Source of the DNA: an uncultured Bermanella sp.
Lineage (GTDB): Bacteria; Pseudomonadota; Gammaproteobacteria; Pseudomonadales; Oceanobacteraceae
Assembly: GCA_913058575.1 (NCBI GenBank)
Contig: CAJXRF010000015.1
Coordinates: forward strand, 1 to 64,000
DNA length: 64,000 bases
Direction of reading: 5' to 3'
Below, piece after piece: positions 3,100 to 11,935 of this stretch. The translations under genes and the position numbers were made by a program. How positions within the stretch are numbered: the first letter of the stretch is position 1; each line of letters starts with the position of its first letter. The notes below the pieces were generated by a model. That model had not been told where the DNA came from and searched no databases. It was given only the letters and a program-made list of their open reading frames with translations.

Positions 3100-6000
3100 T
3101 TGAAATTCGTGTCAGATCAATTGAAACAGCTTGAACAATTATTACCGGCTTGCATGATTCAAAAGCGTTTTGCTTTTTCGCGTCAATTGGTAAAAATAAA
3201 GCAACTTCAAAAGCAAAATAAGCCCATTGAAGAGGCATTATTTAAGCTTTCAGCTCAAGTGGTAAAGAACGTCGAGCTGGCACAAAGTCGCGCAAACTCA
3301 ACCCCTAAAATCACCTACGACGACCATTTACCCATAAGCCAAAAACGCGATGCTATATCAAAAGCCATTGATGAGAATCAAGTGGTGGTCATCGCAGGCG
3401 AGACAGGCAGTGGTAAAACCACGCAAATTCCTAAAATATGCCTTGAATTAGGCCTTGCCAACAACGGCATGATTGCTCATACCCAGCCCAGACGAATTGC
3501 AGCACGGTCGGTGGCACAACGCATTGCTGATGAAGTGCATGTGGAACTGGGTAATGAAGTGGGCTTTCAAATACGTTTTAGTGATCAATCTAAAGACACC
3601 ACTTTAGTAAAGCTCATGACCGATGGTATTTTATTAGCAGAAACTCAGCATGATAAATTCCTAAATAAATACAGCGTTATCATCATTGATGAAGCTCATG
3701 AGCGAAGCTTAAATATCGACTTTTTGCTGGGTTATCTAAAACAATTATTATCTAAGCGCAAAGATTTAAAAGTGATTATTACATCTGCCACCATTGATGT
3801 GGAGCGTTTCTCAAATCATTTTGATAAGGCGCCGGTCATTGAAGTATCAGGGCGAACCTTTCCCGTTGAAACCCGTTACCGTGCGCTGTTAGATTTAGAA
3901 AAAGAAGACGAAGACAGTGAAGAAAGCGAAGGAGATTTATACCGAGGCATATTAGATGCCGTGGAAGAATTACAAACTGAAGATGCCCAACGCCAACAAT
4001 TGGGTGACGTTTTGGTATTTTTAAGTGGTGAGCGAGAAATTCGTGAAACTTCTTTATTATTAAAGAAAGCCAATTATAAAAGCACCATTGTTTTACCCTT
4101 GTATGCGCGACTCAATAGTTCTGAGCAAAATAAAATATTTAACCCCACATCGGGCCAGCGCCGCATTATTTTGGCCACTAACGTGGCTGAAACGTCATTA
4201 ACAGTGCCCGGTATTCGCTATGTTATTGACACAGGTGTTGCGCGAATAAGTCGTTACAGCTATCGCTCTAAGGTGCAGCGCTTACCTATAGAAGCTATTT
4301 CACAGGCCAGTGCCAATCAACGTAAGGGTCGTTGTGGGCGTGTCAGTGAAGGGGTGTGTATTCGCTTATATAGCGAAGAAGATTTTAATTCTCGTCCTGA
4401 ATTTAGCGAACCTGAAATACAACGCACCAATTTGGCCGCCGTTATATTGCAAATGCTGTCACTTAAATTAGGAGACGTCACTGATTTTCCTTTTGTGGAT
4501 GCCCCTGATAACCGCTTTGTAAAAGATGGCTACAACCTATTAAAAGAACTTGGCGCCATTTCATCTGGTAATTCTATTAATTCGGTGGGCATGGCGCTCT
4601 CTAAATTACCAGTAGATCCTCGTATTGCTCGTATGCTAATTGCAGCGGGTAAGAATAATTGTTTGTCGGAATTACTAATTGTTGCTGCTGCCTTAAGTAT
4701 TCAAGATCCAAGAGAGAGGCCAGAAGAAAAGAGACAGGCGGCCGATCAAAAACATGCCGAGTTTAAACATGAAGATAGCGACTTCTTAACGCTTTTTAAT
4801 ATCTGGCAACGTTTTGAAGAAGAGCGTCAAAACGGCACAAATAATCAGCTACGACAATTTTGCAAAAAGAATTTTTTAAATTACATGCGTATGCGCGAAT
4901 GGCGGGATGTGCATTACCAATTACGTTTGCAATGTAAGCAGTTAAAGCTAACTGAAAACTCTGAAGCGGCTGGCTACGCCACTATTCACCAAGCAATTTT
5001 GACGGGCTTTTTAAGTCACATTGGTAACAAGTCAGATGAAGGAGATTATCACGGTGCTCGTAATCGTCGCTTTATGCTGTTTCCAGGAAGTGGCATTTTT
5101 AAAAAGCGCCCGAAATGGGTGGTAACCGCTGAATTAGTGGAAACCAGCCGTTTATATGCCCGTATGAATGCCAAGATAGAACCGGAATGGCTAGAGCCTC
5201 ACGCAGGACACTTGGTTAAGAAAAAATATCTTGAACCTCATTGGTCCAGTAAGCGTGGCCAGGTGGTGGCTTATGAACAAGTCTCTTTGTTTGGGCTGGT
5301 TATTGTGCCTAAAAGGGCTATTGCTTATGGCAATATTGATGAACCCATCAGTCATGATATTTTTATTCGCGAAGCACTGGTATTGGGGAATATTCGCACT
5401 AAGGGCGCTTTTCTTAAGTACAACCAAAACCTAATTGCTGAAATTTCAGAATTAGAGGATAAAAGTCGGCGCCGCGATATTGTCGTAGATGAAGAGCGAT
5501 TATATGAATTTTACAGTGAGCGTGTGGCTCAACACATTACTTCCACTGCCAGTTTTGAAAAATGGCGTCAGCAACAAGATGACGGTTTATTAAAAGCCAC
5601 CAAATCATATTTAATGCAGCATGGGGCAGAGAATGTCACTGAAGCACTTTTCCCCGATCACTTCTCTCAAAGCAGCATTATTTACCCATTAGCTTACCGT
5701 TTTGAGCCCACCCATAATGAGGACGGTGTCAGCGTGAGAGTGCCCGTTGCCATGTTAAAGCAATTGCCAGTGAGCCGCTTACAGTGGTTAGTTCCCGGCA
5801 TGATTCGCGACAAAGTTATTGCGCTGGTAAAAAGTTTAAGTAAGACCATTCGTAAACAACTGGTGCCAGTCCCAGATTTTGTAGATGAATTCTTGGCTAA
5901 GAATCAGGCTTGTGATCAACCTATAACAGATGTGTTATCGCAGTTTATTTACCAAACTAGGCGAATAAAAGTGAATGCTGAAGATTGGAATCTTTCTCAG

Positions 6001-7020
6001 CTAGATAGGCATTATCTAATGAATATCCAAGTGGTAAACGATGACAATAGCATGATCGTTCAAGGTCGTAATTGGCATGATTTACTAGAGGAAGTGGGCG
6101 ACAGGGCCAATGTGGCGGTACAAGCAAAAGGGAATGATCTAGAGCGTAAAGATATAAAACGCTGGGATTTAAACAGCTTGCCGGAAACTTACCACATGAA
6201 GCAGGCAGGAATACAAGTCACCTTATTCCCAGCCTTAATAGATGAGCAATCAAGTGTCTCTCTACAATTATTAGAGCGCAAAGATGAAGCAGACCTTAAT
6301 ACCCGCTTGGCGGTGTATCGACTATTACAGTTAGAGCTTACGGATCAAGTGAGCTGGATACACAAAGAAGTGCAAAAACGTTTGGTTCAAGAAATTATTT
6401 ATTATTCTAACATTGGTAATAAAACAGAGTTATTAAATGGCGTGACACAATTAGTGTTCAAATGCAGTTTTGAGTTTATTGACATTCCCAGAAATGAAGA
6501 TGCCTTTAACGAAATAAAGCAACAAGGTCGTGGAAAAATTGGCCAAACTCTAGATGACATAGTGGGTTTAATAAAACAAATTATGTCTGAATATCATCTA
6601 TTGAAAAAGAAAATGAAAAAGCAAAATCAACTAGCCTTTGCCTTTGCGGTGAGCGATATTAACGGTCAAGTTTCACAAATTATGCCTAAAGGTTTTATTG
6701 GCTTAGTGGATTATGAATCGCTTAAACATTATCCAAGGTATATTAAAGCGATGATGATACGCATGGACAAGCTGCAGGGAAATTTGCAAAAAGACAAACT
6801 TTTGCAATTGAAAATCATGGATTGGCAAGAACAATATCAGGATTTGTTGGGCAAGTTGCCAGCTCATTTGAACTGTTATCCTGAAGTACTGCCGCTTAAT
6901 TGGATGATGCAGGAATTTCGAGTGTCTTTATTTGCGCAAGAATTAGGCACTGCTATTCCTGTTTCAGAAAAGCGTTGGAAGGCACAATTTGAAAAAGCAT
7001 TACAAAGTGTCAATCAATAA
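3100..7020 (+). CDS. hrpA: ATP-dependent RNA helicase HrpA (DEAH box)
   Basis: This 1306-aa DEAH-box helicase has the usual HrpA length (about 1300 aa). In order: an N-terminal basic region, Walker A GETGSGKTT at residues 100–108, the DEAH box at 197–200, motif III SAT, the helicase C domain with QRKGRCGR, and then the OB-fold and DUF3418 C-terminal half. HrpA-type helicases unwind RNA and act on stalled or colliding ribosomes and fimbrial mRNA processing (family knowledge). The frame opens at TTG 3100. A GTG at 3109 (MSDQLKQLEQ…) is an equally possible start because the only purine-rich stretch, GGG at 3094–3096, fits it better. The gene stands alone. Confidence 0.93.
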   Translation: MKFVSDQLKQLEQLLPACMIQKRFAFSRQLVKIKQLQKQNKPIEEALFKLSAQVVKNVELAQSRANSTPKITYDDHLPISQKRDAISKAIDENQVVVIAGETGSGKTTQIPKICLELGLANNGMIAHTQPRRIAARSVAQRIADEVHVELGNEVGFQIRFSDQSKDTTLVKLMTDGILLAETQHDKFLNKYSVIIIDEAHERSLNIDFLLGYLKQLLSKRKDLKVIITSATIDVERFSNHFDKAPVIEVSGRTFPVETRYRALLDLEKEDEDSEESEGDLYRGILDAVEELQTEDAQRQQLGDVLVFLSGEREIRETSLLLKKANYKSTIVLPLYARLNSSEQNKIFNPTSGQRRIILATNVAETSLTVPGIRYVIDTGVARISRYSYRSKVQRLPIEAISQASANQRKGRCGRVSEGVCIRLYSEEDFNSRPEFSEPEIQRTNLAAVILQMLSLKLGDVTDFPFVDAPDNRFVKDGYNLLKELGAISSGNSINSVGMALSKLPVDPRIARMLIAAGKNNCLSELLIVAAALSIQDPRERPEEKRQAADQKHAEFKHEDSDFLTLFNIWQRFEEERQNGTNNQLRQFCKKNFLNYMRMREWRDVHYQLRLQCKQLKLTENSEAAGYATIHQAILTGFLSHIGNKSDEGDYHGARNRRFMLFPGSGIFKKRPKWVVTAELVETSRLYARMNAKIEPEWLEPHAGHLVKKKYLEPHWSSKRGQVVAYEQVSLFGLVIVPKRAIAYGNIDEPISHDIFIREALVLGNIRTKGAFLKYNQNLIAEISELEDKSRRRDIVVDEERLYEFYSERVAQHITSTASFEKWRQQQDDGLLKATKSYLMQHGAENVTEALFPDHFSQSSIIYPLAYRFEPTHNEDGVSVRVPVAMLKQLPVSRLQWLVPGMIRDKVIALVKSLSKTIRKQLVPVPDFVDEFLAKNQACDQPITDVLSQFIYQTRRIKVNAEDWNLSQLDRHYLMNIQVVNDDNSMIVQGRNWHDLLEEVGDRANVAVQAKGNDLERKDIKRWDLNSLPETYHMKQAGIQVTLFPALIDEQSSVSLQLLERKDEADLNTRLAVYRLLQLELTDQVSWIHKEVQKRLVQEIIYYSNIGNKTELLNGVTQLVFKCSFEFIDIPRNEDAFNEIKQQGRGKIGQTLDDIVGLIKQIMSEYHLLKKKMKKQNQLAFAFAVSDINGQVSQIMPKGFIGLVDYESLKHYPRYIKAMMIRMDKLQGNLQKDKLLQLKIMDWQEQYQDLLGKLPAHLNCYPEVLPLNWMMQEFRVSLFAQELGTAIPVSEKRWKAQFEKALQSVNQ

Positions 7021-8490: not shown

Positions 8491-8695
8491 GTGGGTGAAA
8501 GTTTAAAAATATTACCCAAATGTAATACTTTTGTGATGATTTAAAAAATACGACATTTTTATTAATAAATGCCATTTATTTCTCATTAAAAATGAACCAT
8601 CTTTCTTGGTGTAACTCCTATTAGGTATTGAAAATAGAGCTTGATTCTACTTTCAGCCAATAACTAATAATTTTATACATAATGAGGGGACTCTC

Positions 8696-9073
8696 ATGGC
8701 GAATAACAAAATGAAACCTTTGGCGATGGCATTTGGTGCATCACTTCTAGCAAGCGTTGCAACGACCACAGTGGCAGCTGAAAACCCGTTTGTTTCTCAG
8801 TCTTTAGAATCTGGCTACAAAGTAGCGATGGAAGGCAAGTGCGGCGAAGGTAAGTGCGGTGGTGATAAGGCTGCTAAAGAAGGTAAGTGTGGTGAAGGTA
8901 AGTGCGGTGGTGATAAGGCTGCTAAAGAAGGTAAGTGTGGTGAAGGCAAATGTGGTGGTGATAAGGCTGCTAAAGAAGGTAAATGTGGTGAAGGCAAATG
9001 TGGCGGCGATAAAGCAGCCAGTAAAACCAAAGAAGGCAAATGTGGCGAAGGCAAGTGTGGTGGTAAGTCTTAA
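8696..9073 (+). CDS. bufA: bufferin-type RiPP metallophore precursor (ten EGKCG motifs)
   Basis: This 125-aa exported precursor has a Sec signal peptide (residues 1 to about 28, ending TVAA) and a short linker. The remainder is built from EGKCGEGKCGGDKAAK blocks. There are five double-EGKCG blocks, giving Cys at 49, 54, 65, 70, 81, 86, 97, 102, 116 and 121. In the described bufferin family, a DUF692 (MNIO) enzyme with its DUF2063 partner converts EGKCG cysteines to thiooxazole-type heterocycles, and the exported product binds copper. The next three genes are exactly these partners. The ATG at 8696 follows a GAGGGG site. The motif count is higher than in the founding examples I remember. Metal specificity is inferred from the family, not seen. 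Confidence 0.88.
   Translation: MANNKMKPLAMAFGASLLASVATTTVAAENPFVSQSLESGYKVAMEGKCGEGKCGGDKAAKEGKCGEGKCGGDKAAKEGKCGEGKCGGDKAAKEGKCGEGKCGGDKAASKTKEGKCGEGKCGGKS
8831..9070 (+). repeat. in-frame 48-bp tandem repeat inside bufA
   Basis: Four 48-bp units start at 8831, 8879, 8927 and 8975. A fifth, partial unit starts at 9032 after a 9-base insertion coding SKT. Units differ mainly at third codon positions (GGT/GGC, AAG/AAA), so the array is under protein-level selection and open to slippage or recombination that would change the number of cores. Confidence 0.9.
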
Positions 9074-9095
9074 CGGCTAATGGAAAGGAACGCAC

Positions 9096-9926
9096 ATGAC
9101 GCTTAACGGTTCTGGTCTGGGGTTACGCCGAGGCATGATGGAAGAAATGAAACAACTGACGACTCAGGATGTGGATTTTCTAGAAGTAGCCCCTGAAAAC
9201 TGGATAGGCGTTGGTGGGCGTTTGGGAAAGGCGTTTCGGGAATTTACCGAGCGCTTTCCTTTTGCTTGTCACGGTTTGTCGCTCTCTATTGGCAGCCCTG
9301 ACGAGCTAGATATTGAGTTCGTGAAATCTGTAAAGTCATTTATGGATGAACACGATATCAACATTTACAGTGAACACTTAAGTTATTGCAGTAATGAAGG
9401 TCACATGTATGACCTTTTACCCATACCGTTTACAGAAGAGGCTGCTAACTATGTGGCCAACCGCGTTAAACAGGTGCAGGATATTTTACAGCGCCCGTTA
9501 ATTCTTGAAAACGTTTCCACCTATGCATCCCCAGGCCAAGAGATGTCAGAACTCGACTTCATGACTCACGTACTGAATAAAGCCGACTGTAAAATGCTAT
9601 TAGATGTGAACAACGTTTATGTAAATAGCATTAATCACGGTTTTGATGCCAAGCAATATATAAAAGCACTGCCAACTAATCGAATTGAATATATGCACGT
9701 GGCGGGGCATTTTGATGAAGCTGAAGACTTACTGGTCGATACCCATGGCGCCAGCATTAAATCACAAGTCTGGGAGCTGTTAGCGTTAAGTTATGCTCAA
9801 CATGGTCCATTACCGACTTTACTTGAACGGGATTTTAACTTCCCGCCCATGAGCGAATTGCTTAGGGAAATTAATCAAATTAAACAATACCAGCAAGGGG
9901 CTCAGCATGAACGCCAACTTGCCTAA
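9096..9926 (+). CDS. bufB: multinuclear non-heme iron oxidase, DUF692 family (bufferin maturase)
   Basis: DUF692 protein of 276 aa with a TIM-barrel MNIO fold. Conserved residues expected to hold the iron cluster are visible: His59 (ACHGLS), Glu93-His94 (YSEHLSY), Glu138-Asn139 (ILENVS), Asp170-Asn172-Asn173 (LLDVNNVYVNS), His201 and His205 (HVAGH), Asp215-His217 (VDTHG) and Glu244 (LLERD). Family enzymes such as MbnB and bufferin maturases oxidatively rearrange peptide cysteines; here the substrate is presumably the preceding precursor. It starts at ATG 9096, 22 bases after the precursor stop, with an AAAGGAA site. It overlaps the next gene by 20 bases, which implies translational coupling. 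Confidence 0.92.
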   Translation: MTLNGSGLGLRRGMMEEMKQLTTQDVDFLEVAPENWIGVGGRLGKAFREFTERFPFACHGLSLSIGSPDELDIEFVKSVKSFMDEHDINIYSEHLSYCSNEGHMYDLLPIPFTEEAANYVANRVKQVQDILQRPLILENVSTYASPGQEMSELDFMTHVLNKADCKMLLDVNNVYVNSINHGFDAKQYIKALPTNRIEYMHVAGHFDEAEDLLVDTHGASIKSQVWELLALSYAQHGPLPTLLERDFNFPPMSELLREINQIKQYQQGAQHERQLA

Positions 9927-10659
9927 ATCATTATTACCTTTTCAGGAAGTGCAAAAGCGTTTTTCCCAAGCCATTCGCGACCCTGAAAATCATCCGCATA
10001 TTGAAGGCATTGAAAATCGTCGTCTTAAAATATACAGCGAGTTATTCTTCAACAATGTTGAGGGGTTTATTAGCGGCGGTTTTCCAGTTTTAAAAGAGTT
10101 ATTAACCGGTCAGCAATGGACCACCCTAGTACGAGATTTCTTTATAAACCACACGTGTGCCAGCCCTTATTTTTTAAAAATCAGTGAAGAGTTTCTAGAT
10201 TACCTACCCAGTAGCAGCTTGGATTTTTTACCTGAGTTTAGCTACCAATTAGCACATTGGGAATGGTTGGAATTGCATGCAGATGTATACCCAATAACGA
10301 AGCCAAAGCCGGCTCCTACACAGCTTCTTGAAAACCAAGTGCTTAGTATCATCGAGAGTGCATGGTGTCAGGCTTATGATTTTCCTGTACACACCATAAG
10401 TGCGGATAATTTGCCTGAACAACAAGCTACCTACTTATTGATTTACCGAAACCATGATTTGGAAGTAGGCTTTAATGAACTCAATCCATTAAGTGCCGTG
10501 TTATTTGAAAGTCTGCAAAACAATACTGAGCAATCTAGTGAAGCCATCCTTAAAAATATTGCTGATCAATTCAACATGGAAGAGAGCACGGTGATTAATG
10601 GAGGTCAGCAAATCCTTACTCAGTGGCTAGAGCTGGGCATATTGATTGAATTAAATTAA
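9907..10659 (+). CDS. bufC: DUF2063 partner protein of the MNIO enzyme
   Basis: 250-aa protein with the DUF2063 N-terminal domain (about residues 10–100: FQEVQKRFSQAIRD…NRRLKIYSELFFNNVEGFISGGFPVL) and a C-terminal winged-helix-like region. DUF2063 proteins act as the precursor-recognition partner of DUF692 enzymes (family knowledge). The ATG at 9907 lies inside the bufB end, 20 bases before its stop, with purine-rich AGCAAGGGG upstream. It is soluble and lacks a signal peptide, consistent with modification of the precursor in the cytoplasm before Sec export. Confidence 0.88.
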   Translation: MNANLPKSLLPFQEVQKRFSQAIRDPENHPHIEGIENRRLKIYSELFFNNVEGFISGGFPVLKELLTGQQWTTLVRDFFINHTCASPYFLKISEEFLDYLPSSSLDFLPEFSYQLAHWEWLELHADVYPITKPKPAPTQLLENQVLSIIESAWCQAYDFPVHTISADNLPEQQATYLLIYRNHDLEVGFNELNPLSAVLFESLQNNTEQSSEAILKNIADQFNMEESTVINGGQQILTQWLELGILIELN

Positions 10660-10690
10660 ACGATTTTTACTAACAACAAAGTACCTGACT

Positions 10691-11281
10691 ATGTATCAAC
10701 TATATAAACAAAGCCATGATTGGTTAGATAAATCCCGTAAACTTGATTTTCTTGGCCCCTTGCTGCTGCGATTGTATTTAGCCCCAGTATTTTGGTTGGC
10801 TGGAACCAATAAGTTAGCTGACATGGACAGCGTTATCAGTTGGTTTGGAAATGATGATTGGGGCTTAGGTTTGCCTATTCCTGCTTTTTTTGCTTGGGCG
10901 GCAGTATTAACGGAAGTGTTAGGAGCCATTCTATTGGTCGCTGGGCTGGCGGTGCGTTGGATTAGCATTCCGCTCATGATTACGATGTTAGTGGCCATGT
11001 TTGCCGTGCATTGGCCCAATGGCTGGCAAGCGGTAGCTGACCCCATGTCAGCGTTTGCTGGTGAAGGCGTGGGTGAGGCGATTCGCCGTTTAGACATTGC
11101 AAAAGATATTCTTAAAGAACACGGTAACTATTCTTGGTTAACCGAAAAAGGCAGTTTAGTGGTAAGTAACAACGGCATCGAATGGGCTTTCACTTATTTT
11201 GTCATGTGTTTGGTGTTGTTTTTTAATGGTGCTGGTCGCTATGTAAGTGTTGATTATTATTTGGCTAAAAAATTTAAGTAA
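10691..11281 (+). CDS. bufD: DoxX-family membrane protein of the bufferin operon
   Basis: 196-aa inner-membrane protein with about four hydrophobic segments (roughly residues 20–40, 65–85, 90–110 and 160–180) and a DoxX-like opening (LGPLLLRLYLAPVFWLAGTNKL). DoxX proteins are regular members of DUF692/DUF2063 operons; their exact role is not settled, with redox or quinone-linked functions proposed. It is 31 bases after bufC and the operon ends with a strong terminator directly after it. A generic DoxX unrelated to metallophore work is possible but less likely given the context. Confidence 0.83.
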   Translation: MYQLYKQSHDWLDKSRKLDFLGPLLLRLYLAPVFWLAGTNKLADMDSVISWFGNDDWGLGLPIPAFFAWAAVLTEVLGAILLVAGLAVRWISIPLMITMLVAMFAVHWPNGWQAVADPMSAFAGEGVGEAIRRLDIAKDILKEHGNYSWLTEKGSLVVSNNGIEWAFTYFVMCLVLFFNGAGRYVSVDYYLAKKFK

Positions 11282-11298: not shown

Positions 11299-11327
11299 AA
11301 AAAAACCGAGCATTGCTCGGTTTTTTT
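11299..11327 (+). terminator. terminator of the bufferin operon
   Basis: Stem CCGAGC (11306–11311) / GCTCGG (11315–11320), extended by flanking A and T runs. Loop ATT and a seven-T tail, 17 bases after the bufD stop. Confidence 0.92.
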
Positions 11328-11339
11328 ATGGCTTTTAAG

Positions 11340-11935
11340 ATTACAGTGACAAGTTAAGTTTTTAAATCGTGCCGGTTTTAGCAGCTTTTCCAATACAGGG
11401 TAGTCACTAGAGCCTTTGGCTCTTTCTAGGTGAAAGGCGAATGCCCACTTTACTTGGTCCAATTCTGTCACATACTGCATGCACCGCCTCCATCATGAAT
11501 TGCAGACGATTATCAATATTGCCGCCATATTCGTCATTGCGTTGGTGGCTGCTGTCACGGGTGAACTGGCCAATTAAAAATCCGTTGGCACCGTGTACTC
11601 CACCCCATCTAAACCGGCATCGACTGCCCGCTGAGCCGCTGCTGCATATCTTTCAATTTGTTGTTTGATCTCTTTTGGGTTAAAGACCTTGCTTGTTCAA
11701 AAGCGCGATCGCGCCCCTTAGGTGTAGGTAGCTGTCCATTTAAAGAAAATTCACTTGCCGAAACAGCTTGCTGCCCTTCAATAAAGTCGGGTGAACAGCC
11801 GCACCAATGTGCCAAATTTACACAAAAATAACGACATGTTTTTCATGTGCTCCGCGAGCAACTTTTTTGCCAGTCATCTTGCTATGCTTGGTTAAATTGG
11901 GTGGCTCAAAGTGAGAAGCGCAATGAAGGTGTGTG
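11340..11935 (-). pseudogene. decayed Old Yellow Enzyme (NADH:flavin oxidoreductase) gene
   Basis: The reverse strand carries pieces of an OYE/NemA-type flavoenzyme in different frames. An N-terminal piece like VARGAHEKHVVIFV then a stop then IWHIGAAVHP lies at about 11795–11860 (the stop replaces the Gln of VQIWH). Then come SPDFIEGQQAV…SLNGQLPTPKG (about 11700–11790), QIERYAAAAQRAVDAGLDGVE (about 11605–11670), and after a frameshift GANGFLIGQFTRDSS and NDEYGGNIDNRLQFMMEAV (about 11470–11600), the OYE hallmark. It ends at KVGIRLSP; the C-terminal third is missing. At least two frameshifts and one stop are present, so no functional enzyme is expected. Sequence from about 11935 to 12130 may hold further N-terminal debris but is not readable as protein. 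Confidence 0.8.

Follow-up and report, generated by a model that had tools for sequence, protein, structure and literature searches.

The window analysed here, a stretch of 64,000 nucleotides from an uncultured Bermanella sp. (contig CAJXRF010000015.1), contains an operon whose first gene encodes a small cysteine-rich repeat protein. The locus raises the question of what kind of product the operon makes, whether its precursor is unusually large, and how its expression may be controlled. An earlier note, made from the sequence alone, had proposed a bufferin-type operon with an expanded, ten-core precursor. We analyzed which genes the locus contains and to which families they belong, together with its repeats, its conservation and its upstream motif (Table 1).

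Table 1. Features of the operon region, with positions counted from the first nucleotide of the window.
Feature	Positions	Strand	Evidence or description
Candidate ECF sigma-E-like promoter	8593..8621	+	TGAACCA (-35), 16-base spacer, TCCTAT (-10)
Candidate leader hairpin or dyad	8630..8654	+	GAAAATAG - 9 bases - CTACTTTC, one mismatch
hvfA-like precursor, 125 aa	8696..9073	+	NF050137 108.9 bits (cut-off 19.5)
Repeat array, five EGKCGEGKCG pairs (ten EGKCG)	8831..9061	+	48-bp period, with a final step of 57 bp
hvfB, MNIO (DUF692) maturase, 276 aa	9096..9926	+	NF003818 438.8 bits (cut-off 360); PF05114; nearest solved chain 3bww
hvfC, DUF2063 partner protein, 250 aa	9907..10659	+	NF050145 264.4 bits (cut-off 142); PF09836 + PF22106
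hvfX, DoxX-like protein, 196 aa	10691..11281	+	NF050144 225.5 bits (cut-off 80); PF07681
Intrinsic terminator (two-way), 3' of hvfX	11299..11327	+	direct reading: AAAAAAACCGAGC-ATT-GCTCGGTTTTTTT

All four products match the NCBIfam models of HvfA, HvfB, HvfC and HvfX, and the operon is therefore of the hvfABCX type. With a probability of about 0.93, we regard it as the oxazolin/captophorin operon, hvfABCX, of a gammaproteobacterium resembling Bermanella, which would make a copper-binding modified peptide. HvfB, HvfC and HvfX pass the cut-offs of equivalog models, and the precursor passes that of a domain model, NF050137, which describes a repeated KCGExKCG unit and aligns to four stretches of the protein. 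The score of the precursor with the HvfA equivalog NF050188 (66.3 bits) lies below the cut-off of 95, so that we call it a family member and withhold the name HvfA proper. The DUF692, DUF2063 and DoxX genes that the earlier note had placed after the precursor are borne out by their Pfam matches, and so is its single terminator, which was read directly and is missing from the list of the consensus scanner. The uniform spacing of 20–30 bases proposed for the genes holds for the first and last junctions (22 bases between hvfA and hvfB, 31 between hvfC and hvfX) but not for hvfB and hvfC, which overlap by 20 bases. Residues N172, D215 and H217 of the window HvfB are invariant in the ten aligned HvfB proteins. 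Mapped indirectly, by way of 3bww and assuming an offset of one, they would correspond to residues N175, D242 and H244 of Haemophilus influenzae HvfB, which are reported to be essential there (PMC13419390).

A true bufferin operon, with a Buf1 (DUF2282) or a Buf2 (six-Cys) precursor, would have the same core genes, and the EGKCG group is itself named Buf_EGKCG in PMC12452194; the MNIO and partner logic is common to both. This assignment is nevertheless very improbable, as the precursor differs in sequence from Buf1 and Buf2, has no Pfam match at E ≤ 0.1, DUF2282 included, and the maturase scores 274.8 bits with the bufferin maturase model NF050167, below its cut-off of 310. What stands of the earlier bufferin-type identity is a predicted MNIO-modified, Cys-repeat RiPP with heterocycles; EGKCG precursors form the Buf_EGKCG/oxazolin (HvfA) group, and the maturase scores above the cut-off of the HvfB model NF003818 (438.8 against 360). 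Judged from sequence, the operon is of this 'captophorin' type, distinct from bufferins proper.

A further point against a bufferin is that operons of the other kinds are present separately in the same genome (5.72 Mb in 186 contigs), which has three MNIO genes in all. At L003, the MNIO gene adjoins a DUF2282 (Buf1) precursor, and a gene for an ECF sigma factor lies downstream. At L001, it adjoins a lipoprotein-like precursor with twelve Cys and a lipobox-like Cys, which was assigned to Buf2 (six/12-Cys) by eye, with no Pfam match found. The L001 and L003 loci lie on contigs C24 and C45, and the maturases of L003 and L001 are 32% and 39% identical to the window HvfB, respectively. Precursors of all three large groups described in PMC12452194 thus adjoin MNIO genes in this genome. 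A genome search that covered precursors of the EGKCG type, stand-alone ones included, returned one locus.

Two side observations concern the surroundings of the operon. Just downstream, on the minus strand (11422–11693), lie fragments of an alkene reductase gene (Old Yellow Enzyme, PF00724) that correspond to profile positions 139–229 in two frames, the second piece below the cut-off, and that are apparently what is left of a decayed gene. Elsewhere, 12 longer PF00724 matches occur in the genome, and a plasmid blastn also matches alkene reductase genes. Upstream, a 49-bp tandem repeat (2765–2912, three copies, 81% matches) precedes a long ORF (3100–7020) that appears helicase-like by eye.

The precursor begins with an apparent Sec signal peptide, MANNKMKPLAMAFGASLLASVATTTVAA, recognized by eye from a basic start, a hydrophobic stretch and VAA before ENPF (...TTTVAA|ENPF), which is followed by the leader ENPFVSQSLESGYKVAM. 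The ten EGKCG motifs start at positions 8831, 8846, 8879, 8894, 8927, 8942, 8975, 8990, 9032 and 9047, whereas 20,000 shuffles of the mature part gave a mean of 0.02 motifs and at most 2. The earlier description of five near-identical blocks is accurate for the five EGKCGEGKCG pairs but not for the linkers: three blocks share the identical 16 residues EGKCGEGKCGGDKAAK, block 4 carries the longer linker GDKAASKTK, and block 5 is the end of the protein. The 48-bp DNA repeat noted earlier was recovered by Tandem Repeats Finder (48-bp unit, 3.8 copies, 93% matches, 8831–9012). When the 30-base pairs are compared, adjacent blocks show 3, 3, 2 and 4 differences and those separated by two or three steps up to 8 (1–4), and block 5 differs from the other blocks at 4 or 5 bases. 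The pattern in blocks 1–4 is that which stepwise tandem duplication would give. A single-sequence AlphaFold2 prediction of the precursor has a mean pLDDT of 45.4, without a confident fold, and such a model neither supports nor excludes the published beta-helix.

The precursor could instead be an unmodified Cys-rich repeat protein, of low complexity or metallothionein-like, that merely adjoins the MNIO genes, as would be compatible with a repeat protein that alone lacks a confidently predicted fold. This reading is barely credible in view of the relatives, in which the EGKCG pairs are held despite linker turnover, the PF...GY leader is found in 49 of 49 distinct precursors, and the maturase and partner genes are intact. 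The order hvfA-hvfB-hvfC is kept in these loci, with hvfX next where the stretch reaches that far and hvfX was matched, and the HvfB proteins of order-keeping loci are 51–75% identical to that of the window. NF050137 matches were found in 56 of 93 genomes, own genome included, with 37 lacking a match; an HvfB homologue at E ≤ 1e-60 was found in 35 of 44 genomes of the family (own included). The closest named HvfB among the best 80 of 588 loci is that of Bermanella sp. MAAD01000049.1 (75% identical; lineage Gammaproteobacteria, Oceanospirillales). In one genome of the same genus, G004, the operon is split: hvfBC (L067) directly follows the beta-ketoacyl-ACP synthase gene and has no precursor there, and the precursor and hvfX are elsewhere (L033). 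A precursor with hvfX, with the MNIO unmatched in the fetched stretch, was also seen at L013, L023, L049, L050 and L051.

We then asked whether ten motifs amount to an expansion. KCG motifs, a few of which lie outside EGKCG, were counted in 49 distinct arrays drawn from profile-search loci (best matches first) and chosen regions, and thus from a non-random sample. The arrays of L025 and L039, which are truncated by contig ends, were set aside, leaving 47 complete arrays with the window included, and an isolated KCG lying far upstream in L030 was left out of the count. The commonest array size is 8 (20/47), followed by 10 (12/47), and 16 of the 47 have at least ten. A contig scan with a single HvfB did not find the relatives, and the named loci are the best 80 of 588 from a contig scan with an HvfB alignment. 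Among these best 80, a precursor was found in 61, of which 27 have at least ten KCG, the largest having 17; in the remaining 19, the retrieved stretch contains no precursor with at least three KCG on the strand of the match. For each locus, the frame richest in KCG was counted. Five of the loci are marked as cut, and the genomes of L123 and L124 seem to be represented already in the 49-array set, as G001:C235 and G031:C51.

The ten motifs of the window exceed the six or seven of three precursors with demonstrated modification, in which all motifs are reported to be modified: HvfA (6; PMC13419390), fontiphorin (7; PMC12668002) and MmrA (6; PMC12538549). The published range of the EGKCG group extends to a member with 58 Cys (PMC12452194). 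The notion of an expanded precursor was consequently abandoned, as ten is common in both sets of relatives; the finding is real but ordinary, with ten repeats within the normal range. The variability of the repeat number, suggested by the earlier note for strains, is seen between species: the genomes of the genus, G001 to G008, have 8, 8, 8, 10, 8, at least 5 (cut), 6 and 8 motifs, and its complete arrays range from 6 to 10.

The linkers vary more than the pairs. In relatives, the two motifs of a pair usually stay at a distance of 5, with single motifs and triplets also seen, and between-pair distances are 10–17, 24 and once 34, largely uniform inside one protein. With proteins treated as unrelated, 86% of the linker variance lies between proteins; 2000 shuffles averaged 28% and did not exceed 59%. 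Periods that span 15 to 29 are difficult to reconcile with a rigid 17-residue beta-helix. The last linker of the window, GDKAASKTK, resembles the long linker GKAESAAKTK of G003 from the same genus, on which ground the blocks with the short GDKAAK linker look like a newer amplification. A variant precursor occurs at L054 (G084), in which each pair consists of EGSCG followed by EGKCG, or in one case by EGNCG, with Ser replacing Lys before half of the Cys.

The upstream region of the operon is shared within the genus. In the window and seven relatives, the gene upstream is a beta-ketoacyl-ACP synthase gene (by NCBIfam in the window, by eye in the relatives), after which come TGAACYA, 16–17 bases, TCNNA, and the inverted repeat GAAAATAG...CTATTTTC, in this or a variant form; a leader follows, then (G)AGGGGACT or GAGGGACT before the start. 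An AATGAAC.AT box and CTC are invariant in the eight aligned genus sequences, window included, and the spacer is variable. Sigma-E promoters have the consensus GGAACTT with TCAAA or TCTGA, which the genus consensus resembles in sequence. The promoter pattern was drawn up with the genus sequences already known. It occurs in 8 of 9 genus upstream regions (eight related sequences and hence not eight independent observations; the exception is G004, with its split arrangement) and in 2 of 40 others, compared with a Markov null mean of 0.54 and maximum of 3 of 49. A sigma-70 scan gave 4 sites where 6.9 were expected, none of them on the plus strand before the operon. The genome itself has 16 matches to Sigma70_r4_2, 11 of them over the cut-off. 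A regulon defined by the -35 box alone was rejected, its 29 sites genome-wide against 31 for a reversed-pattern control being at chance level.

The stem of the inverted repeat is the best one in all eight genus leaders, with one mismatch each in the window and G006, and mononucleotide shuffling gave p values of 0.000–0.048 per sequence (0.048 for the window). The G007 stem has one double change, A-T to G-C, seen by eye. Rfam gave no match at the gathering score, and its 11 weak matches are all below cut-offs. The inverted repeat could equally be an operator dyad or a leader hairpin. The conserved sigma-E-like promoter and putative leader hairpin hint at control by envelope or oxidative stress, and are the one addition made here to the known operon type.

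A function mainly in envelope or oxidative stress and not in copper handling, under an ECF sigma factor, is accordingly a possible though tentative reading. Besides the genus-wide promoter footprint, it would draw on H. influenzae, in which an operon encoding DoxX, COG3220/UPF0276, DUF2063 and a periplasmic protein depends on RpoE2 and responds to HOCl, and is reported not to be significantly induced by HOCl in the rpoE2 mutant (PMC7907618); from its gene content, we infer that this is the hvf operon. Set against it are the post-hoc nature of the promoter pattern, its near absence outside the genus, the chance-level frequency of the -35 box, and the copper binding of published products (PMC12668002). 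On the other hand, Microbulbifer EGKCG proteins were undetected, with or without added copper, in the work reported in PMC12538549, and for this reason a copper-buffer role of the window operon is not certain. Together with the RpoE2 and HOCl dependence in H. influenzae, this also makes a copper-induced response of the operon an unsafe expectation, and the absence of such a response would leave the identity of the operon unrefuted.

The preferred reading, an hvfABCX operon for a copper-binding peptide, takes its ring chemistry, copper binding, export and stress role from published homologues. HvfA would be synthesised in the cytosol and presented by HvfC, the DUF2063, RRE-containing partner, to the iron enzyme HvfB, whose mixed-valent iron state requires HvfC in H. 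influenzae (PMC13419390). HvfB would oxidise each EGKCG Cys, with the loss of four hydrogens per Cys, to a 5-thiooxazole, giving up to ten per chain; the six Cys of H. influenzae HvfA are converted to 5-thiooxazoles (PMC13419390), and MmrA loses four hydrogens per Cys (PMC12538549). The product may then be exported via its apparent Sec signal peptide, bind periplasmic copper, buffer the metal, and probably help in envelope or oxidative stress, with HvfX in an accessory role; ring number would be set by tandem turnover of the paired-motif unit. FonBC modifies a two-repeat substrate and not a one-repeat substrate (PMC12668002), a need for two repeats that would fit the pairing in the window precursor. 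When Ala replaces one Cys of an MmrA pair, the other is still modified (PMC12538549). Copper binding is reported for EGKCG products and may be stochastic (PMC12668002); some of the ten Cys may stay unmodified in vivo.

The closest parallel is the HvfABCX/oxazolin operon of nontypeable H. influenzae (PMC13419390), with its precursor, MNIO, RRE partner and DoxX-like HvfX. HvfA has an N-terminal secretion signal, which by eye is apparent in the window precursor as well, and both have EGKCGEGKCG pairs, but HvfA has six motifs in three pairs instead of ten in five, and the window precursor misses the NF050188 cut-off. The Buf_EGKCG/oxazolin group and the captophorins likewise combine two-EGKCG repeats with MNIO, DUF2063 and DoxX genes (PMC12452194, PMC12668002); their stated period is 17 residues, in contrast to 16 in the window precursor, whose 125 aa and ten Cys compare with a published range of 31–506 aa and up to 58 Cys. 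The Microbulbifer mmr (bulbicupramide) system shares the paired-Cys cassettes and the MNIO and DUF2063 genes but has five to eight Cys, and is described as mmrABC (PMC12538549), to which the window operon adds hvfX.

A more specific scenario for the Bermanella-like operon, in which an ECF sigma factor switches it on in envelope or oxidative stress through the sigma-E-like promoter, the mRNA starts at the conserved hairpin, and evolution adjusts ring number through a turnover of whole arrays that resets linker length uniformly along the array, is rather doubtful. The operon adds a well-preserved member to the large class of modified, copper-binding peptides described in recent work, and its interest is limited to the candidate stress promoter and the comparative series. 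This natural series, with 3 to 17 KCG motifs and varied linkers in the counted loci (including the best 80 of 588), is suited to testing ring number against copper capacity.
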